DNA from: a virus | DNA length: 46,474 nucleotides | Virus record (IMG/VR): IMGVR_UViG_3300025669_000005 | Coordinates: 1 to 46,474 of that record | Strand: one strand, 5' to 3' | Shown: positions 5,265 through 41,144 of the stretch, in pieces | Position numbering within the stretch: the first letter of the stretch is position 1 | Layout of the letters: each line of letters starts with the position of its first letter | Notes under the pieces: model-generated | The model's input: only the letters and a program-made list of their open reading frames with translations | What the model was told of the DNA's origin: nothing | Database searches by the model: none | Program-made: the position numbers and the translations under genes

Positions 5265-7176
5265 CTATCTTTTTAACCTCATATCCGGGGATGTCTTTAA
5301 ATTTATTTTTATTTATCATTGCGAATCGTATGAAGGTCTTAACTCCTATCTGTTTTCCCTCTTCTCTCGATATGTTCCGGTTATTCTTATCTTTGTATCG
5401 GCCCTCTACAATATCAAGCATACCTGTCGCCTGTACCATCTGACTCTTAATTTTATTAGCTAACTTATTGTCCCCTTTTTCGAGAGCTTTGTTGAGTGCC
5501 TGATAAGCTATTGAAACTTGAGCTGCTTGATGCTGCCATGCGTTTGTATCTGTAACCTTTTCAGCTTGGAGTATTTGTCCTTTCTTGATAAGGTCCACTA
5601 TTTCAGGATATGCGTTTGCATCAGTAACAAGATCACCTGTCCAAATATCAGTTTTAGTTTTAAATTCCTGCCCCGATTTTATCTTATCAGTTATAGCTTT
5701 CAACCCCTTGTTGGTAAACCTATACCCAGCTAACACCAGAGGCGTAACAGCATTGAGAAATTTAGCACCATCCTGTTCATCAGTATCCCAAAGAAACCCA
5801 TCAAGAGCTTCAGTAAAATGTTTTGACAACATAGCTGTCTGGTCATTAACAGCACCTTCATGGTCAGGATTCTCAACAACTTTAGCATCAGCAAGCGTGG
5901 CTGCATAAGAAAGAGGTAATCCCATAGCCTGAAAAGCTACCATTGAATCCATGTAATCCTTAGCATCCATAACGCCCTGTCTCTTTAGGTCATTACCAGC
6001 TTTCACTACAAGAAGTTTTGCTTTTATTCTGTCTATTCTATTTCTCTCAGAACGGATAATAAAATCACCTCTTGCTTTTGCTCTGACACCTATCTCTTTC
6101 TGTTCAGCTGTGCTGTATAGTCTCTGAGAAGCCTCAACTGCCTGCCCTGTTTTAAGTGCTGACGTTCCATACTTCTGGTAATTATCAAGAATAGTTTTAA
6201 ACTGAACATTCTTCTGTGTCATGTAATCGAGAACAGCTTTGTTTCTTGTCTTCTGTAATTCGTTAAAATCATCGTTATACGCTTTTGCAAATTCAACATC
6301 CGTATTATATCTTTTCTGTAAGAACTCTGCGTTCTTCACATCTATAGCTCTGTTAAATCCATCTACTTGATCTGCTCTCAACTGAATGGCATCGACACCT
6401 GAACTCAAACTCTCAGCACCTGCACCCGAAATAACACCTTCACTTCCACGAGCTGTCTGAAACATACCGCCCAATGTAGACATGACGGCAACCCTTGCCA
6501 TTTGTTCAGCGTTATCATACTTTATTTTCTCAATTTCAGGTATAGGAAGATCACTAACTTTCATAAGTAATCCTCCCGGAACGCTTGCCTTTACTTTTTG
6601 GATATCTTCAGGATTTAATGCACCTGACATGTAAGCTGCAAAATCAAGAAACTTCTTAAAAAGAGTATTCGATTTATCAATAGCACCTGTAAGATCATCC
6701 ATCTTGCCAAAATTCACACTGGGCATACCGGGAGTACTTGCACCACCATTTAAAGCGGAAGATAATAAACCAAGTTCGTCTCTGGTTGCTTTACCACCTT
6801 TGGATATTTTATCAAGAATAATATTAAGTGCTTTCTTCTTTTCTGCATCTTCAGGACTTGTTTCTACGTCACCTTTCTTGGCTGGGATGCCTTTGGGACT
6901 TCCACCAGATTCAAACCCAGCTTCGTGAGTCCAGCCAGTTGCAGAATCTTTGGCAGATTTAGGAGCTGTCCATTTTGTTGTTTCGATTCCTTCTCCTGAA
7001 GCAGCACGACGTCCTTGGCCACCCCACTCTCTAAACACCTGTGTTGCTTCAGGCTTTTCAACAGGCTTTTTGGGATCTTCAACAACTCCAGAGTCACCAG
7101 TATTCGCACTATCACCAGTACTTCCAGTATCCTCAGTATTTACTTTTTTCTTTTTCTCTTCTTCTGGTTTAGTCAT
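5257..7176 (-). CDS. Large helical late virion protein, unknown
   Basis: This 639-aa protein starts at 7176 behind GGAGGTG and overlaps the upstream stop by 4 bp (ATGA). The first ~120 residues are low-complexity (Lys/Glu/Thr/Gly/Pro-rich, starting MTKPEEEKKKKVN) and probably disordered. The rest is helical with many Gln, Lys and Ala residues and no clear membrane segment or enzyme motif. Its position between two glycine-zipper proteins suggests a soluble subunit of the internal or ejection complex. A cell-wall-degrading activity would be expected somewhere in this group, but I see no catalytic signature here. Confidence 0.85.
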   Translation of the reverse strand: MTKPEEEKKKKVNTEDTGSTGDSANTGDSGVVEDPKKPVEKPEATQVFREWGGQGRRAASGEGIETTKWTAPKSAKDSATGWTHEAGFESGGSPKGIPAKKGDVETSPEDAEKKKALNIILDKISKGGKATRDELGLLSSALNGGASTPGMPSVNFGKMDDLTGAIDKSNTLFKKFLDFAAYMSGALNPEDIQKVKASVPGGLLMKVSDLPIPEIEKIKYDNAEQMARVAVMSTLGGMFQTARGSEGVISGAGAESLSSGVDAIQLRADQVDGFNRAIDVKNAEFLQKRYNTDVEFAKAYNDDFNELQKTRNKAVLDYMTQKNVQFKTILDNYQKYGTSALKTGQAVEASQRLYSTAEQKEIGVRAKARGDFIIRSERNRIDRIKAKLLVVKAGNDLKRQGVMDAKDYMDSMVAFQAMGLPLSYAATLADAKVVENPDHEGAVNDQTAMLSKHFTEALDGFLWDTDEQDGAKFLNAVTPLVLAGYRFTNKGLKAITDKIKSGQEFKTKTDIWTGDLVTDANAYPEIVDLIKKGQILQAEKVTDTNAWQHQAAQVSIAYQALNKALEKGDNKLANKIKSQMVQATGMLDIVEGRYKDKNNRNISREEGKQIGVKTFIRFAMINKNKFKDIPGYEVKKIDE

Positions 7177-8099: not shown

Positions 8100-8421
8100 G
8101 GATTTCCTCCAGTTTGTCAATTTCATTTAGATAAAACTTCATAAATGACCAGTCCCCAGACGGCATATCGTTATCGAATCCTACGGAATAGGGAAGAACG
8201 TATGTCGTATCGAAATATTGTTCAGTGGATACAGACATTGGTCTTACAACAAGATTATACTGGCTTTGTTGTGCAACATCACGAATTTGTGCAACATCAA
8301 GAATTTGTGCAGTTGTCAATGCTTTAACATTCAGAGATGTGACCTCATTAACTTTATGAAAAAGATTCCTGAATATTTTTTTAAGTGAAGTGACAGTTAT
8401 TGTCTCGCCTTTAACGAACAT
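8089..8421 (-). CDS. Small late protein, unknown
   Basis: This 110-aa protein (MFVKGETIT...) is preceded by GGAGATAG. It is a mixed alpha/beta soluble protein with no Cys cluster and no hydrophobic helix. Its 3' end overlaps the start of the glycine-zipper gene by 11 bp. It lies between two groups of candidate ejection genes, so a structural or assembly role is likely, but I do not recognise it. Confidence 0.8.
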   Translation of the reverse strand: MFVKGETITVTSLKKIFRNLFHKVNEVTSLNVKALTTAQILDVAQIRDVAQQSQYNLVVRPMSVSTEQYFDTTYVLPYSVGFDNDMPSGDWSFMKFYLNEIDKLEEIHGR

Positions 8422-27528: not shown

Positions 27529-27777
27529 ATGAAAAAAGCATTGAAAATTACAGTTTATTGGGCTGGGCTTAGTGGCTTTGAAAAGAAAATAGGCGACTTT
27601 AACGCCTCAATTATCATGACCGGCAAACTGCAAAACATTCCGGGACTGTCTGTTGACGTATGGGACGAAGTTGATGTTGAAACTATTGATACACCGGAAG
27701 AAATCAGAAAAACTATTGATCTTTCAAATAAAACATTATTTGGTTTTTATCTTTTCAGGGGGTTCAAGAATGCGTGA
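27529..27777 (+). CDS. Early protein, unknown (82 aa)
   Basis: This 82-aa alpha/beta protein (MKKALKITVYWAGL...) contains an acidic middle (VWDEVDVETIDTPEE). No recognisable motif is visible. The next gene begins inside its last codons. Confidence 0.72.
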   Translation: MKKALKITVYWAGLSGFEKKIGDFNASIIMTGKLQNIPGLSVDVWDEVDVETIDTPEEIRKTIDLSNKTLFGFYLFRGFKNA

Positions 27778-28117
27778 CCAACCAACCTTCATCCAGTACA
27801 AGCGGGCTGAAATTAAAGGTCTAGTCATAGAGCGATACAACAACCTATACGACCTGAAAAGGAACCCTGTACTAGCCGTACTGCTCGGAGACAAGGGAAC
27901 GATAAGCAAAGTAACCAAACAGAAATACGGTGTCGTCTACATTCCGTGGAAAGAGCTGGCACTTCATAAAAAAATCAAGATCATCAGAGGTAGGAAAGGA
28001 AATTATAAATATGAGATCTGGCGTAAAATCAGAGTTGAGGAATATATGGTGAACTATGAAATGAAAGAATACGACAGAGCGGGCGAAATTAAACAATCAC
28101 AGGAGGTGGCGGTATGA
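27770..28117 (+). CDS. Basic early protein, unknown (115 aa)
   Basis: This 115-aa protein starts at 27770 (MRDQPTFIQ), overlapping the upstream gene by 8 bp, behind CAGGGGG. A longer in-frame version from 27653 would run deep inside the upstream gene and is rejected. It is basic (KKIKIIRGRKGNYKYEIWRK) with a strand-rich middle, which suggests nucleic-acid binding. Its last 38 bases also form the first copy of a repeated leader (see 28079-28116). Confidence 0.75.
   Translation: MRDQPTFIQYKRAEIKGLVIERYNNLYDLKRNPVLAVLLGDKGTISKVTKQKYGVVYIPWKELALHKKIKIIRGRKGNYKYEIWRKIRVEEYMVNYEMKEYDRAGEIKQSQEVAV
28079..28116 (+). repeat. Repeated gene leader, copy 1
   Basis: The segment from GCGGGCGAAATTAAACAAT to the GGTGGCGGTATG start is almost the same as 29340-29376, and a shortened form is at 28809-28838. 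All three end at a start codon (genes at 28114, 28836 and 29374) and carry the ribosome site. Confidence 0.8.
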
Positions 28118-28809
28118 AGAAAAAAACAAAAGAAAAAATGATTACAACGCTAAAAACAAAAGAAAAAATGATTACAACGCTAAAAACAAAAGAAAAAATG
28201 ATTACAACGCTAAAAACAAAAGTAGATGTATGGAATAGATGGAGAGAAATGTTTCCATCAAACCCTGATCTCCGTGATGCTTATCTCCGTGATGCTAATC
28301 TCTGTGATGCTAATCTCTGTGATGCTAATCTCCGTGATGCTTATCTCCATTATGCTAATCTCTGTGATGCTAATCTCTGTGATGCTGATCTCCGTGGTGC
28401 TGATCTCCGTGGTGCTAATCTCTGTGATGCTAATCTCCGTGGTGCTAATCTCCGTGATGCTGATCTCCGTGGTGCTAATCTCCGTGGTGCTAATCTCCGT
28501 GATGCTGATCTCCGTGGTGCTAATCTCCGTGATGCTGATCTCCATTATCCTAATCTCCGTGATGCTAATCTCCGTGGTGCTAATCTCGATTTTTCATGTT
28601 TAGATTTATCCTGCAAAACTTTGTCAACAATATTTGATGAAAAACAGTTAATTCAGTTTCTTTTTCATGTGGCTCTGCCGACACAGAACAACAGCCTTAA
28701 CATACAAGATAAGGATTTAAAGAAGTTACTAAACCTGAAAACATTCCAAAAAGTGGTAAACAAATTCCACCGAGTAGAAGAATGCGGAATATTTACAGGA
28801 ACTAAATAG
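28114..28809 (+). CDS. Pentapeptide-repeat protein with triplicated N-terminus
   Basis: The protein has 231 aa. The N-terminus is a perfect tandem repeat of TKEKMITTLK (three copies, residues about 4-36). Residues 52 to about 166 are some 23 consecutive pentapeptides of the A(N/D/Y)L(R/C)(D/G) type, which fold as a right-handed four-sided beta-helix, often a DNA mimic (as in MfpA and Qnr proteins that bind gyrase). The C-terminal ~65 residues are non-repetitive (for example STIFDEKQLIQFLF) and may dimerise or bind a partner. Codons in the repeats are nearly uniform, so the array has expanded recently. As an early gene it may block host topoisomerase or a restriction system; this is inference. 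Confidence 0.85.
   Translation: MKKKTKEKMITTLKTKEKMITTLKTKEKMITTLKTKVDVWNRWREMFPSNPDLRDAYLRDANLCDANLCDANLRDAYLHYANLCDANLCDADLRGADLRGANLCDANLRGANLRDADLRGANLRGANLRDADLRGANLRDADLHYPNLRDANLRGANLDFSCLDLSCKTLSTIFDEKQLIQFLFHVALPTQNNSLNIQDKDLKKLLNLKTFQKVVNKFHRVEECGIFTGTK
28122..28222 (+). repeat. 30-bp tandem repeat in gene start
   Basis: About 3.4 perfect copies of a 30-bp unit (containing AAAAAATGATTACAACGCT) encode TKEKMITTLK in phase. Each copy contains an in-frame ATG preceded by an A-rich run, so the repeat also multiplies possible start codons. Confidence 0.92.
28267..28611 (+). repeat. 15-bp pentapeptide-coding repeat array
   Basis: About 23 in-frame copies of a 15-bp unit (consensus GATGCTAATCTCCGT) encode the pentapeptide helix. 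Most differ at only one or two bases, for example CGT/TGT giving Arg/Cys and GAT/GGT giving Asp/Gly. Because the array has few stop codons in other frames, long open frames appear on both strands here; these are artefacts. Confidence 0.93.
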
Positions 28810-28838
28810 AATTAAACAATTAGAGGGGTGACGGTATG
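28809..28838 (+). repeat. Repeated gene leader, copy 2 (short form)
   Basis: This segment matches the 3' part of the leaders at 28079-28116 and 29340-29376 (GAATTAAACAATTAGAGGGG, then TGACGGTATG). It carries the ribosome site of the gene at 28836. Confidence 0.75.
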
Positions 28839-29015
28839 AATGTTAAAGAATGGAAAAAAGAAGCGTTGGAAATTATGGAAACAGAGTATGGTCTCGAAAA
28901 CTGTATGTTTGAAGAAGTAACTTTGCTAAGGTCTTTTGATAGCGGCGACACACCGAGAGACTTCGCAAACTGGCAGGAATCAAAACACAATCTGATTAAC
29001 TTCAATGAGGGCTAA
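28836..29015 (+). CDS. Early protein, unknown (59 aa)
   Basis: This 59-aa acidic protein (MNVKEWKKEAL...) starts behind a copy of the repeated leader (GAGGGGTG...GTATG). It is predicted helical with one Cys and several Glu/Phe residues. It has no membrane segment and no recognisable family. Confidence 0.72.
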   Translation: MNVKEWKKEALEIMETEYGLENCMFEEVTLLRSFDSGDTPRDFANWQESKHNLINFNEG

Positions 29016-29307: not shown

Positions 29308-29361
29308 ATGATAACAGATAAATCAGAACGGATATTAAAGCGGGCGAAATTAAACAATTAG
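29308..29361 (+). pseudogene. Truncated paralogue of the 29586 gene (17 aa)
   Basis: ATG at 29308 begins MITDKSERILKRA and stops after 17 codons. The gene at 29586 begins MITKKSTRILRRA, so this is a 5' copy cut off where the repeated leader (29340-29376) begins. It looks like the scar of a recombination event at the leader; a functional micropeptide is possible but less likely. Confidence 0.6.
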
Positions 29362-29376
29362 AGGGGTGGCGGTATG
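29340..29376 (+). repeat. Repeated gene leader, copy 3
   Basis: This 37-base segment repeats 28079-28116 with a one-base length change, and ends at the start codon of the gene at 29374. It overlaps the 3' end of the truncated copy at 29308. Confidence 0.8.
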
Positions 29377-29589
29377 AAGTACGAAAAAAAGTTTGTTGAA
29401 GCGTTGTATGAAGTTTTGGCGGAAACAGAATGGAAAGATGAAGGTTTGGAAGTCCTTAAAAATCTCCCGGAAAGTATAGACAATGTTTCCCTCGATAAAA
29501 ACGAAGGGCTTATTGAGTTTGAGGACTCTGAGGGGCGGGTTACTTATCAAATAACAATAAAAGCAGTTCATGCAGCGAGGCCACAATGA
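29374..29589 (+). CDS. Acidic early protein, unknown (71 aa)
   Basis: This 71-aa Glu-rich protein (MKYEKKFVEALYEVL...) starts behind the repeated leader. It is a helix-plus-strand protein (GLIEFEDSEGRVTYQITIKAV). It overlaps the next gene by 4 bp. No family is recognised; strongly acidic small early proteins are sometimes DNA mimics, but nothing here proves it. Confidence 0.72.
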   Translation: MKYEKKFVEALYEVLAETEWKDEGLEVLKNLPESIDNVSLDKNEGLIEFEDSEGRVTYQITIKAVHAARPQ

Positions 29590-30785: not shown

Positions 30786-33272
30786 ATGATTAAATGCAGT
30801 TATGCAGAACACGTCTCCAGGTCTGTTACTCCGGTAGATCTTGAGGATGTCTTATCTGATATAAAAAATGGTAAACATAAAGAAAACATAAACCGTATCC
30901 GCAGAACTTCTCTGAACGATACGAGTACACGGTCAGCACTGAAAAAGAAACTTCCTATCTTAACTGGTGGAATTTACGAAGCTCATGCGGAAGACGATAA
31001 GGACCGGCTGACGAATAGAAATGGAGATTATTTCAAGTCAACACGGATAGTTATACTGGATATAGATCACATATCGGAATACTATTCTATGCCTGAAACG
31101 GGCGATCCTGCAGAGATAGCCTGGATGAAGTCAGACTTCGATCCCGAATCTGAATCGTGGCTATTCAGGAATGTATATGCGGCTTTCCGTTCTCCAGGTG
31201 GTGATGGACTTAAGGTTGTTCTTGTACTTGACAGGGCTATAACTGACCTCAATACATATAAAAGGGTATGGAGATTCTTAGCTGATGAATGGAAGAGCGA
31301 TCAGGGTAGTGAAGTGGACCCTTCAACGTGTGATGCAACACGAACGTGTTTTCTAAGCTATGATCCTGAGATGTACCATGCACCGGATAATATAATTGAT
31401 CTTGATGTTATAACTCCGATGATAAGTTCACTTGAATTCACTGATGCTGAAATGGATGAGAGTGGAAGGAGGATATCAGTGCAGCTTAAACACCCGGAAC
31501 AGAAAGCTATTTTCTTACATTTAGCAGATGATGTTTATGTAGAACATTACAAGGATTTTCGTAATCTATGCAGTGCAGTGAGTAATCTGGGGAAAGACCT
31601 TATGACTGAATTCTACGATAAATTACTCGCAAAGAATTCTGATAATCTTTCCAGAGATTCCGCTAAACAGCTAAGAACGAACAGGGAATCATATATCCGT
31701 AGTTTTTCTACGGAACATAAGCGAGTTCCATTACAGTTCGTTTTCGATTTCGCTGGACTTGAAGGAATAACACTTGAGAAATTTGCTGTTAAGAAGAAGT
31801 CAGGAAGTAAACTCGCTCCGATGTTCGACATTGACGGTATTAAACAAAATATCATTAACTGGATGAATAAAAGATATGCAGTCTTTAAGGCCGGGCGATC
31901 TATACTTATTCTTCCACAGATAAAATCTAAGAGTTACTACTCGATATCTGCGCAGGACCCGACATCATCCGCTGAAATGAATATGATACAATTAGCGGGA
32001 AGAAATGATTTCAGAGCATTTATGGATAATATGAAACTCTATTATTATAATGATAGAGGTGAGCTTGTATCAGTAAAATATTTCGATATCTGGTGGAACT
32101 CACGCAAGCGGAGAAACTGTTCCGGTATGATATGTTATCCATCTAAGATAACTAATAATAATATTGTTAATAATTGGACAGGATTCAATGTTGATCCTGA
32201 GAAGGTTAAAGTTATTCTTTCGCAGGAACATTCTGAAGACACAAATATCTGTCAGCCAATACTCGATTTTATCTGGGAAGTTATATGTTCTAAGAATAAA
32301 GCTGACTTTAATCTGGTATTAAATTGGATAGCCGAAATGATACAGAACCCTACACCAACGAATAAATCGGGGATAGCTCTTGTACTTAGGTCAACAGCAC
32401 AGGGGACAGGTAAAGGAACAATGGCTGCAATAATTCAGGATATGATAGGTCCGGTTCATTCAGCGGAACTTCATAGAGCGGAGGACCTTACCGGCTCATT
32501 CAATTCAGTTATTGAAAACAAACTGTTCCTGGCACTTGACGAGGTATTCTTCGCCGGTGACAAGAAGGGTGCTGCAGATCTTAAACATCTCATAACAGCA
32601 TCCGGATTTACAGTTAATCGTAAATTCGTTGAAGGGTATCAGGCTGATTGTTCAGCTCGCTTTCTCTTTATGTCTAATGCGGAGCATACAGTTCATATCG
32701 AGCTTGACAATAGAAGATACGTTGTTCTCGATGTATCTCCACATAAGAAAGATGATTACGATTATTTTGCAGGACTAAGATTGTGTATGAAAAACGGAGG
32801 GAAAGAAAGTCTATTCAATTTCTTCCAAAATTGGAAGATAGATCACTCCGTATTCCAGATAAGAAAACGCGGTATCAATAAAGCGACTATCGCTCAGGTA
32901 CAGCAATCATTCGAGAGTTTTGATCTATGGATAATGCACATATTGTCAGAAGGTTGCTTCACCGATGGATTCAAGGAAACCGCTAAACTGAATTATGAGA
33001 GTGAGAATGTCCTGAGTATTAACGATATGTATATTGACTATCTTTTATTCTCAGAACTTACTAGAGTCAGATTCAAACATAATCTCGCAGCATTCCAATT
33101 CAGGATCAGCGAATTTTTCGGACCGCAAGTACCTGTAACGGATGGAAGAAATCTAACGAATAAAATAAAATTCGCATTCAAGAGTCTGAACGAGATAGGA
33201 GAAACCCATTCAGCACACCGACCTCTCGGATGGATAGAGAGAAAAGATCCTGATTATGGAGATAAAGTTTAA
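30786..33272 (+). CDS. Primase-helicase (VirE-like primpol N-terminus, SF3-like ATPase C-terminus)
   Basis: The protein has 828 aa. The N-terminal primase-like part shows ILDID at residues about 90-94, SPGGDGLK at 136-143, and TRTCFLSYDPEMY at 185-197, the pattern of the BT4734/VirE-type archaeo-eukaryotic primase family. A linker region follows. The C-terminal ATPase has Walker A STAQGTGKGT (536-545), Walker B FLALDEVFF (581-589) and a sensor/arginine segment NRRY (642-645). It belongs to the D5-like phage bifunctional replication proteins that both synthesise primers and unwind DNA. It is the main replication protein, as no DNA polymerase gene is present. Confidence 0.88.
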   Translation: MIKCSYAEHVSRSVTPVDLEDVLSDIKNGKHKENINRIRRTSLNDTSTRSALKKKLPILTGGIYEAHAEDDKDRLTNRNGDYFKSTRIVILDIDHISEYYSMPETGDPAEIAWMKSDFDPESESWLFRNVYAAFRSPGGDGLKVVLVLDRAITDLNTYKRVWRFLADEWKSDQGSEVDPSTCDATRTCFLSYDPEMYHAPDNIIDLDVITPMISSLEFTDAEMDESGRRISVQLKHPEQKAIFLHLADDVYVEHYKDFRNLCSAVSNLGKDLMTEFYDKLLAKNSDNLSRDSAKQLRTNRESYIRSFSTEHKRVPLQFVFDFAGLEGITLEKFAVKKKSGSKLAPMFDIDGIKQNIINWMNKRYAVFKAGRSILILPQIKSKSYYSISAQDPTSSAEMNMIQLAGRNDFRAFMDNMKLYYYNDRGELVSVKYFDIWWNSRKRRNCSGMICYPSKITNNNIVNNWTGFNVDPEKVKVILSQEHSEDTNICQPILDFIWEVICSKNKADFNLVLNWIAEMIQNPTPTNKSGIALVLRSTAQGTGKGTMAAIIQDMIGPVHSAELHRAEDLTGSFNSVIENKLFLALDEVFFAGDKKGAADLKHLITASGFTVNRKFVEGYQADCSARFLFMSNAEHTVHIELDNRRYVVLDVSPHKKDDYDYFAGLRLCMKNGGKESLFNFFQNWKIDHSVFQIRKRGINKATIAQVQQSFESFDLWIMHILSEGCFTDGFKETAKLNYESENVLSINDMYIDYLLFSELTRVRFKHNLAAFQFRISEFFGPQVPVTDGRNLTNKIKFAFKSLNEIGETHSAHRPLGWIERKDPDYGDKV

Positions 33273-38765: not shown

Positions 38766-40049
38766 ATGAGTAAGAAGATGACAAGAATTGAAAGTGCTAG
38801 GACTGTAAGAGATTTTAAAGGCAATTGTGGTGCAAATTACGACATTCAGTGTAGAAAGTGCTTTAATTATCTTCCAACAAATAAATGTAAATCAAATTCA
38901 GACACAGAAAGACTAATTGCAGCCCAAACCTTCATCAAACGACACAACCAAAAAAGCAAGCGGAAGCCTAAACCAGTTATTGCAAAAACCACACCTACTA
39001 GACCAAACTTCCGCCAAGCCCTTAAGGATAAAAAGGAGTTCTATGTTGCAGTTACTCCAGAGCTATCAGAGGAACTTCAGAAGGTGGCGTTTGAGTGTGG
39101 GGTATGCTGGCGTAACGAAACATCTGGCGTAGTTCATACTGATAAAAAATGGCTCAACTTTGAATCATTGGGCTGGTTTGGGTATTCTTCAGAACCGTTT
39201 TATAAAACAGAATACCTCCCAGAATCTGACACTTTCAAAGAACCTGTAACCCGTTCCAATTTCCGCCAAGCCCTTAAGGATAAAAAGGAGTTCTATGTTG
39301 CAGTTACTCCAGAGCTATCAGAGGAACTTCAAAAGGTGGCGTTTGAGTGTGGGGCCAAGTGGATGGGTAATCCTGATTTAATTCAGGTTACAGGAAACGA
39401 TTTTTTAATATTTGAATTTAGTGTAGCAAAACAGAATGCGTACCATATTTATGCCTCTAATATTATAATAGATCATAAGGCTGAACACACAGAGTACGAT
39501 CCCACCACAGACACTTTCAAAGAACCTGAAAGCATAGGTACAGTGCCAGACGTAGAGTGGTTTGAGTGTATAGATATTGGTGGAGTAAGCGGGAAAAATC
39601 TATCCTACCATAAAAAATATAAGGTTATCGGACGAGATGATGATATGGTCACTATTGTTAACGATAAAGGTAAAGAAGAGAGGGTGTGGGCAAGCAGATT
39701 TATCCCCACCACAGACACTTTCAAAGAACCTGAAGCCCAAGAAACCATAGGCAACCCTTCAGATGAGGCTGATGAACTTCCTGAGTGTATCAAGTTTGAA
39801 GATGAAGTGCCTGAGTTCGTGTATATTGTAAATGATATGTCTATCCTGAAAAGAAAAGTAGAGCGGTTTGTGGATGAAACTAGTAGATACAAATATCATA
39901 ATCCTAATAATGGTATTGTGACAGCAATTGGAATGAATGGCTATAACAAAGGAATAGAAGATACGGGCGGAGCTTTGCATGGGTTTGATAAGTGCTATAA
40001 GTCTACAGACGAAGCAGTTAAGATATTTAAAAGTAGGGAGGTGAAGTAA
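38766..40049 (+). CDS. Early protein built from duplicated modules (427 aa)
   Basis: This 427-aa protein starts with a Cys-cluster head (QCRKCFNYLPTNKC). Then come two copies of an about 31-residue module (FRQALKDKKEFYVAV... to ECG, residues about 82-112 and 166-196), each followed by a variable region, and linkers ending (T)DTFKEP at three places. A later SH3-like module (YKVIGRDDDMVTIVNDK) and a C-terminal domain follow. The DNA of the two modules is identical over 94 bp except one base, showing a recent in-frame duplication. It has no membrane segment. The function is unknown; modular early proteins often bind host proteins. Confidence 0.8.
   Translation: MSKKMTRIESARTVRDFKGNCGANYDIQCRKCFNYLPTNKCKSNSDTERLIAAQTFIKRHNQKSKRKPKPVIAKTTPTRPNFRQALKDKKEFYVAVTPELSEELQKVAFECGVCWRNETSGVVHTDKKWLNFESLGWFGYSSEPFYKTEYLPESDTFKEPVTRSNFRQALKDKKEFYVAVTPELSEELQKVAFECGAKWMGNPDLIQVTGNDFLIFEFSVAKQNAYHIYASNIIIDHKAEHTEYDPTTDTFKEPESIGTVPDVEWFECIDIGGVSGKNLSYHKKYKVIGRDDDMVTIVNDKGKEERVWASRFIPTTDTFKEPEAQETIGNPSDEADELPECIKFEDEVPEFVYIVNDMSILKRKVERFVDETSRYKYHNPNNGIVTAIGMNGYNKGIEDTGGALHGFDKCYKSTDEAVKIFKSREVK
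39009..39102 (+). repeat. 94-bp direct repeat, copy 1
   Basis: This segment in the modular gene is identical to 39261-39354 except for one base, and both are in phase with the frame. It encodes the repeated module FRQALKDK...ECG. Confidence 0.93.
39261..39354 (+). repeat. 94-bp direct repeat, copy 2
   Basis: This is the second copy of the 94-bp repeat at 39009-39102, 252 bp apart (84 codons), so the frame is preserved. Confidence 0.93.
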
Positions 40050-40429
40050 TGAGAGGATATAGAGTATTTGATACAGTAGAAAAGAAGTATTGTCCTAACG
40101 GCTTTTATCTTAGAGGTGATGGTGTTTTGCTTGAGAATGTTGGAGGAGCTTTTACATCTTTAACCCCAGCCGACCCAAAACGCTACATTGTAGAGGAGTC
40201 TACAGGGCTAAAGGACAAGAATGATAAGATGATATTTGAGGGGGATGTTGTATCTTTTTGGCCTACCCTAGAGCATGAAAGAGGAAAAATTAAATGTGAA
40301 ATAACTTATTCAATGCACGGTTTTTGGGCAAAGGAGATTGATATTGACCGCAAATGGATAATGTATGGTGATGTAGAAATAATAGGCAACGTCCATAATA
40401 ACCCTGAACTACTGGAGGTAACAGAATGA
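40049..40429 (+). CDS. YopX-family protein 1
   Basis: This 126-aa protein has the YopX pattern: N-terminal RGYRVFDTVEKK, an EESTGLKDKNDKMIFEGDVV core and a C-terminal VEIIGNVHNNPEL. The first 43 bases of the gene are identical to those at 40803. It shares one base with the previous stop and overlaps the next gene by 4 bp. YopX proteins are common in phages of many hosts; their biochemical role is unknown. Confidence 0.85.
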   Translation: MRGYRVFDTVEKKYCPNGFYLRGDGVLLENVGGAFTSLTPADPKRYIVEESTGLKDKNDKMIFEGDVVSFWPTLEHERGKIKCEITYSMHGFWAKEIDIDRKWIMYGDVEIIGNVHNNPELLEVTE

Positions 40430-40806
40430 ACATCAGAGAAAATTTGATTATAGATATAGAGACAGATGTTTCAGACAACGAGTCAGATTCTAAAACTTTA
40501 AAATTTCTTGTAGATGAGGACTTGAAAGATTTAGGTTATAATGTACATTCGCTACAGGTTCAGCCAGCTAAACGCCACCCAGACCCCAACGGAGTGCTAC
40601 CTTTGACGGAAAAGGAGCTGGAAGAATATTATTCTACGTTTGGATATGAATCAAGTAGTGTTGGAGTTCTGAGGGCTGTATCAATATTAGATGACGGGCT
40701 TTACGCTGTTGTTGCGTTGTGGGAAAGAAAAGAGGGGTGCAGAATAACCAACTACAAGGCTATCCTATGGCTTGCAGAACGATTTGAACTGGAGGTAGAG
40801 AGATGA
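40426..40806 (+). CDS. Early protein, unknown (126 aa)
   Basis: This 126-aa acidic protein (MNIRENLIIDIETD...) starts behind CTGGAGGTAACA, a leader also used by the gene at 41141. It has an alpha/beta composition with a C-terminal helix (AILWLAERFELEVER). It lies between two YopX genes. No family is recognised. Confidence 0.75.
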   Translation: MNIRENLIIDIETDVSDNESDSKTLKFLVDEDLKDLGYNVHSLQVQPAKRHPDPNGVLPLTEKELEEYYSTFGYESSSVGVLRAVSILDDGLYAVVALWERKEGCRITNYKAILWLAERFELEVER

Positions 40807-41144
40807 GAGGATATAGAGTATTTGATACAGTAGAAAAGAAGTATTCAGATAAAGAGTTTTTCATTTCTAAAGATGGAAAGCTATATATCAAAGATGGAAT
40901 CCAATTAAAAAAGGTAGACACAGACCGCTACCTTGTAGAGGATTCAACAGGGCTGACAGACAAGAATGATAAGATGATATTTGATGGGGATATTGATCTT
41001 GAATATGGCGTTGTGAAATGGTCAGATAATTATGGTGGTTGGTTTTGCTTTAAAGATGGCGAAGAAAGACCGCTTTATGATTATCCTTTATTTGAAGTAG
41101 TCGGAACTATCCATGATAACCCAGAACTGGAGGTAACACAATGA
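40803..41144 (+). CDS. YopX-family protein 2
   Basis: This 113-aa paralogue of the gene at 40049 has the same N-terminus (RGYRVFDTVEKKY) and core (DSTGLTDKNDKMIFDGD) and the end FEVVGTIHDNPEL. It is somewhat shorter and diverged in the middle. Together the two YopX genes and their followers (40426 and 41141) form a duplicated two-gene cassette. Confidence 0.85.
   Translation: MRGYRVFDTVEKKYSDKEFFISKDGKLYIKDGIQLKKVDTDRYLVEDSTGLTDKNDKMIFDGDIDLEYGVVKWSDNYGGWFCFKDGEERPLYDYPLFEVVGTIHDNPELEVTQ

Follow-up and report, generated by a model that had tools for sequence, protein, structure and literature searches.

A phage pentapeptide-repeat gene with a near-uniform repeat array, a variable number of units and a conserved C-terminal cap

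The DNA analysed here (the window) is an entire IMG/VR virus record, 46,474 bases in length. An intact gene coding for a pentapeptide-repeat protein (PRP) is located on its plus strand, opposite to the structural genes and 5' of genes for HTH, primase-like and helicase proteins (Table 1). An AGGAGG sequence is present at positions 28101-28106, seven bases 5' of the PRP ATG, which overlaps the TGA codon of the upstream ORF (ATGA). The large proteins encoded on the minus strand of the window (727-23961) mostly lack a PHROG match, and the matches to terminase and head-tail adaptor proteins are weak. No relatives were retrieved when the primase neighbour (30786-33272) was used as a query for related phages, and the terminase-like protein matched nothing in cultured phages. 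On these protein comparisons, we place the phage far from described groups. Elsewhere in the window, two small proteins (40049-40429 and 40803-41144) both match a single ORF of locus L047; this shared match makes them likely paralogs in an early operon, and by eye they are possibly YopX-like.

Table 1. Features of the PRP locus, with positions in the window.
Feature	Position	Strand	Remarks
Upstream ORF	27770..28117	+	115 aa; no PHROG match; stop overlaps PRP start
Leader with ribosome-binding site (ATTAAACAATCACAGGAGGTGGCGGTATGA)	28086..28117	+	Start of the block in common with L005/L006; overlaps upstream stop
PRP coding sequence	28114..28809	+	231 aa; ATG start; intact ORF
Basic N-terminal helical extension and cap	28114..28260	+	Residues 1-49; net charge +10; predicted helices 2-35 and 37-46
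Perfect 30-bp tandem repeat	28122..28222	+	3.4 copies; N-terminal helix ~20 aa longer
Array of 21 15-bp units (predicted beta-solenoid)	28264..28578	+	Consensus GCTAATCTCCGTGAT; A-N/D/Y-L-R/C/H-D/G/Y
C-terminal cap domain	28576..28806	+	Residues 155-231; four predicted helices; signature DFSC..L.C....D..Q...H...NKFHRVEECG
Second leader-motif copy (AATTAAACAATTAGAGGGGTGACGGTATGAA), 5' of the next gene	28810..28842	+	End of the block in common with L005
Downstream ORF	28836..29015	+	59 aa; no PHROG match

The two tandem arrays of the PRP gene score above all others found by TRF in the window, the remaining three rows having scores of 52-79. The 30-bp unit (100% matches, score 202) forms an exact period-30 run of 101 bp, while a 15-bp unit is repeated 21.3 times at 28268-28587 (88% matches, score 472). 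The sequence-only reading had described near-identical 15-bp units and a perfect 30-bp triplication, and these match levels bear out both. Where it counted about 23 pentapeptides, a unit-by-unit count gave 21 canonical ones at 28264-28578; 23 is reached by adding ANLDF and SCLDL, which belong to the cap. Its description of the array as very young calls for some qualification: the mean pairwise identity of the units is 87%, and silent differences between them are absent. The units differ at six columns, all at codon position 1 or 2, and all 105 third codon positions are uniform by column. The 15-bp period also generates an antisense ORF (28258-28545) and an overlapping ORF (28226-28603), both of which we discarded as by-products. 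At 8269-8311, a minus-strand ORF contains a further tandem repeat, with an 18-bp unit present in 2.4 copies (96% matches).

The assignment of the protein to the pentapeptide-repeat class, made earlier from the letters alone, was confirmed by Pfam (Pentapeptide, PF00805; 116.7 bits against a cut-off of 20.2, E=2.9e-34). An AlphaFold2 model built from an alignment of 36 family members (pLDDT 89.5) has a four-sided solenoid with one strand residue per five, preceded by N-terminal helices (2-35 and 37-46) and followed by C-terminal ones (176-191, 200-206, 209-215 and 221-224). When the model was compared with solved structures by Foldseek, the designed PRP beta1, NP275, HetL, QnrB1, MfpA and AlbG were recovered with a probability of 1.00, though with modest overall TM-scores. 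The predicted fold is thus a right-handed quadrilateral beta-helix followed by a helical cap, and the four-sided helix on which the earlier reading depended is present in the prediction. The protein shares its A(D/N)LXX repeats, predicted fold and Foldseek matches with PF00805 proteins, and differs from them in having an array that appears homogenised at the DNA level and a cap that is absent from the collections searched.

For the cap, residues 157-231 matched nothing in Pfam or NCBIfam, the best PHROG match was weak and not significant (E 0.048), and no match in the PDB was obtained, either by profile or by fold with a cap-only AlphaFold model (pLDDT 85.9). When these 75 residues served as the sole query, seven viral loci were found. 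An alignment of the seven, used as the query, revealed the best 80 of 82 viral loci and 18 genome loci, totals in which some loci are counted twice and others match just the final repeats and the beginning of the cap. The final alignment comprises 69 distinct caps, and the cap is borne by ~70 relatives in phages or prophages; the C-terminal domain is therefore not unique, contrary to the sequence-only reading. The genome loci come for the most part from MAGs and isolates of Clostridia; individual MAGs carry other labels, Spirochaetaceae and Gammaproteobacteria among them, but MAG labels may mislead for phage contigs.

The family signature is DFSCxPLWCG...Q...H...FHR. D159, S161 and C167 are found in 100% of the 69 caps, Q181 and H185 in 99%, H219 in 84%, and F160, C162, P164, L165, G168 and D175 in at least 90%. 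The window cap has G155, A156, D159, F160, S161, C162, C167, D175, Q181, H185, H219 and R220, while in the P-L-W-C-G core P164, W166 and G168 are replaced by D, S and K, as in L005 and L006, its closest relatives. By alignment, the three form a divergent branch that retains the other signature residues. The conserved Cys and His residues of the cap may form a zinc site. A literature search for the motif FHRVEECG found no published mention. We conclude from these comparisons that the cap defines a phage-associated family, uncatalogued so far. It is the conserved part of the protein, which fits a functional or docking role.

Among 50,697 records, Blautia phage Montmirail is the only cultured phage with a full cap. 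Its PRP (WAK79216.1), encoded near excisionase/regulator genes, belongs to the same cap family (73% identity to the L034 cap), but is short (record positions 5720-6013), and its cap is ~41% identical to the L007 branch. At L045 (3-2327), four PRP genes of the family, with divergent arrays, lie head to tail; on this arrangement, genes are duplicated locally, besides the duplication of units. In two unrelated phages, L046 (6340) and L062 (1168), the family PRP has close by a further PRP whose C-terminal domain is of another type (CGCGIN...). Another cap family of phage PRPs, GCQxHxxxxW (L149-L157 and L159-L170), was found in Salmonella, Edwardsiella, Acinetobacter, Rheinheimera and other phages.

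The DNA shared between the window and L005/L006 is confined, according to blastn, to 28086-28842 (upstream edge 28086/28087), and the remaining window ORFs are without relatives on the L005 and L006 contigs. An isolated block in otherwise unrelated phages is what is expected of a moron, and by this comparison the gene is a mobile cassette outside the phage core. The leader at its upstream edge has matches in L005 (3736 and 4219) and L006 (93), and occurs three times in the window against 0.05 matches expected; a shared translation leader could promote recombination of the cassette. Its two further copies (AGGGGTGRCGGTATGA; 28823-28839 and 29361-29377) each precede a small gene of the window. 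In L005 the PRP gene is duplicated and located between a GpA-type terminase gene and a lambda-type portal gene. The label of an early gene, given by the sequence-only reading, holds by position for the window, where the gene is on the plus strand upstream of the HTH, primase and helicase genes, but not for the same cassette in the packaging/head cluster of L005, a late position at odds with an inhibitor that acts strictly early.

The N-terminal 30-bp unit is single-copy in L005 and L006 (MNATTKEKMIVTLKTK...) and present in three copies in the window; at the protein level, the peptide KEKMI(T/V)TLKTK occurs once in each relative and three times in the window. Since L005 and L006 carry the unit once, comparison suggests that, most simply, the triplication arose on the window's own lineage.

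The comparison of repeat number among related phages, which the earlier reading had proposed, revealed large differences under nearly identical caps. The tandem gene copies of L005 have 9 and 23 units and 100% identical caps; L092 and L094, from one genome, have 7 and 21 units (caps 98% identical), and L035 and L041 have 15 and 3 (caps 95% identical). Full-length members of the cap family range from ~3 to ~60 units. PRPs of Salmonella P22-like phages behave similarly, the C-terminal 29 residues being identical and the number of units 12-26 in complete, readable cases. Phages L and ST64T, whose genomes are otherwise >99.9% identical, differ here by one 15-bp unit (PMC8022706). The ongoing expansion noticed in the window thus extends, with contraction, to the cap family, the Salmonella arrays and the published phage pair, and turnover of repeat number is demonstrated by these alignments. 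The Salmonella protein Orf232 (phages L, ST64T and epsilon34) resembles the window PRP in being a phage accessory PRP with a constant C-terminal segment, silent sites nearly uniform within arrays and an overlapping residue alphabet (N/D/Y, R/C, G/D); unlike it, Orf232 has the GCQxHxxxxW cap instead of PLWC...FHR, and adjoins ral in several of those phages.

Silent and replacement variation was compared in 53 arrays, 24 of which, with a mean unit identity of at least 85%, were classed as young. The young arrays contain 100 replacement variants at exposed codons and 11 silent ones (10% silent), while ~43% silent would be expected if both kinds were neutral (binomial p ~1.6e-14, counting alleles, which are not independent, instead of mutation events, and assuming a transition weight of 3.5). 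For all 53 arrays the numbers are 279 and 93 (p ~4e-13). A three-fold smaller effective number should leave the result clear. The window array alone, with ~6 replacement-only variants, is not significant (probability from a few per cent up to ~15%, calculated by hand). Codon bias was considered as a cause of the uniformity and rejected: the wobble consensus varies between the 53 arrays but shows little or no variation inside many of them, and in the window array leucine is encoded by CTC in 21 of 21 units, a codon that accounts for 15.8% of leucine codons in the large ORFs of the phage. Outside the family, where the comparison was limited to the L149-L157 arrays, with misfiled family arrays and antisense frames excluded, an Acinetobacter phage PRP of 35 units has no silent-position variants and four exposed ones, and a Caulobacter phage PRP of 47 units has two and six, respectively.

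Because relaxed constraint alone predicts more silent variants, we infer from the arrays that units are homogenised and that selection retains exposed differences; relaxed constraint could account for part of the exposed-residue variation. Along the faces, any periodicity is weak (lags 2, 4 and 8; lag 4 z=1.9, lag 8 z=2.1). Uniformity at silent positions, variability at exposed positions and a variable number of units are together the features of homogenised recognition arrays of the TALE or NWD kind. By analogy, the NWD/het WD40-repeat family of Podospora is the nearest described counterpart, with concerted internal repeats, variable repeat number and exposed-site replacement variation; it differs in being an unrelated beta-propeller that functions in fungal self/non-self recognition, and in that positive selection was tested there codon by codon (PMC1805685). 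The way the arrays evolve suggests a diversifying binding surface.

The neighbours of the family genes are mixed and include integrase, repressor, Gam-like, annealing protein, DnaD-like loader, cytosine methyltransferase and transglycosylase/endolysin genes, and no partner gene recurs beside the cap family among the neighbourhoods compared. In Salmonella P22-like phages, the PRP gene has ral (antirestriction) on one side and superinfection-exclusion (sie) genes on the other. By association, the neighbourhoods point to an accessory gene and fit counter-defence or exclusion. Against such a reading, the ral and sie neighbours belong to PRPs with the other cap.

In the explanation we favour, the protein would have three parts. 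Its 21 pentapeptides would form a four-sided beta-solenoid, flanked by an N-terminal helical cap, which a triplication has lengthened very recently, and by a conserved helical cap at the C-terminus. The 15-bp units would undergo slippage or unequal recombination, which would homogenise the array and alter its length, while selection would keep or favour differences at outward-facing residues alone (positions i-1, i+1 and i+2). The solenoid face may then be a rapidly retuned protein-binding surface, with the constant part left to the caps (capping of the fold, dimerisation or docking of an effector). The protein would bind and block a host or rival-phage factor in counter-defence, host take-over or superinfection exclusion. 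That this mobile cassette, with its homogenised array and selected exposed face, encodes a binder of a host or rival factor and not a DNA mimic is a tentative proposal, which we hold with somewhat less than even confidence. On this reading, the product of this accessory gene would bind a protein of the host or of a rival, probably in counter-defence or exclusion.

Several other explanations were weighed. The triplication or the array length might be an assembly artefact of a lone metagenome contig, and exact DNA scans for other contigs revealed none with the 30-bp unit and none with the DNA of the window cap, so the triplication rests on one contig. We nevertheless consider an artefact extremely improbable: the 30-bp units are in frame and lengthen a helix that the relatives have once, ordinary paired reads can span a run of 101 bp, and independent cultured phages, including a published pair (PMC8022706), also change repeat number. 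A more serious alternative is that the solenoid is a stable rod, tolerant in length and under relaxed constraint, while the conserved C-terminal cap does the work; differences at the surface of the rod would then have little significance. The conserved caps, the freely varying repeat number and the lack of strong face periodicity favour such a spacer, as does the general tolerance of exposed pentapeptide positions to substitution. It is rather unlikely in our estimate, for relaxed constraint predicts ~43% silent variants, where the young arrays have 10%, and does not account for a wobble base that is uniform within many arrays and different between them.

The sequence-only reading had proposed mimicry of DNA, with inhibition of gyrase or another DNA-handling enzyme in the manner of Qnr and MfpA. 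The surface of these two proteins is acidic. The window protein is basic overall (net +8, pI 9.06); its array has a charge of -4 over 108 aa (family median -3), the solenoid faces sum to 0, 0, -3 and -1, and at exposed positions Arg is mixed with Asp/Asn. A strongly negative DNA-like surface was not found, as judged from sequence alone. The NCBIfam models for Qnr and MfpA scored far below their cut-offs (NF033086, 34.5 against 240; NF000349, 46.5 against 360). Repeat number varies, which argues against a fixed DNA-like footprint; a range of 3 to ~60 repeats is incompatible with a single DNA-like length. The protein resembles the gyrase-protecting PRPs Qnr, MfpA and AlbG in its solenoid fold and in having a C-terminal helical element after the solenoid, but its C-terminal domain is unrelated to theirs and to that of every solved PRP. 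PRPs with such activity do exist, their acidic surface having been reviewed (PMC10886550), and the window gene adjoins early replication genes; even so, mimicry is very improbable here. The PRPs McbG and QnrB did not block BREX in a published test (PMC7261183), which shows that the fold by itself confers no anti-BREX activity.

The cassette might instead be a moron that benefits the lysogen, acting in the prophage state through superinfection exclusion or host fitness and not in lytic take-over. The interval between terminase and portal genes, where the L005 cassette lies, is a typical moron site; several relatives are in bacterial-genome contigs, some of them identical to IMG/VR prophages, and the Salmonella PRPs adjoin sie genes. 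A consensus scan around the window gene, however, recognised no promoter or terminator of its own clearly above shuffles, and genes of early replication and recombination are found close to many relatives. We regard a role restricted to the lysogen as improbable.

The proposal of a binder with a retuned solenoid face can be extended to phage PRPs in general, which would be fast-evolving recognition rods: the order of pentapeptides would encode the host or rival protein that is bound, and interchangeable conserved caps would serve as effectors. Units of 15 bp would be continually copied, deleted and homogenised, an arms race would keep the exposed alphabet (N/D/Y, R/C/H/S, G/D/Y) diverse, and the caps would be PLWC...FHR, mostly in Clostridia-type phages, and GCQxHxxxxW in enterobacterial phages. 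We offer this generalisation as a doubtful, if possible, one.

Phage PRPs are common, and most are annotated as 'function unknown' or taken, as a guess, for DNA mimics that act on gyrase. The present finding is real and interesting, though not category-breaking: the solenoid is known, and the phage-associated cap family attached to it is new. It urges caution against reading DNA mimicry into each pentapeptide protein. The cap makes the family searchable, the number of units and the surface residues are variables that can be altered, and cultured material exists in the form of Blautia phage Montmirail and Salmonella phages L and ST64T. If homogenisation combined with diversifying selection is true, PRP arrays would be candidate arms-race binders.
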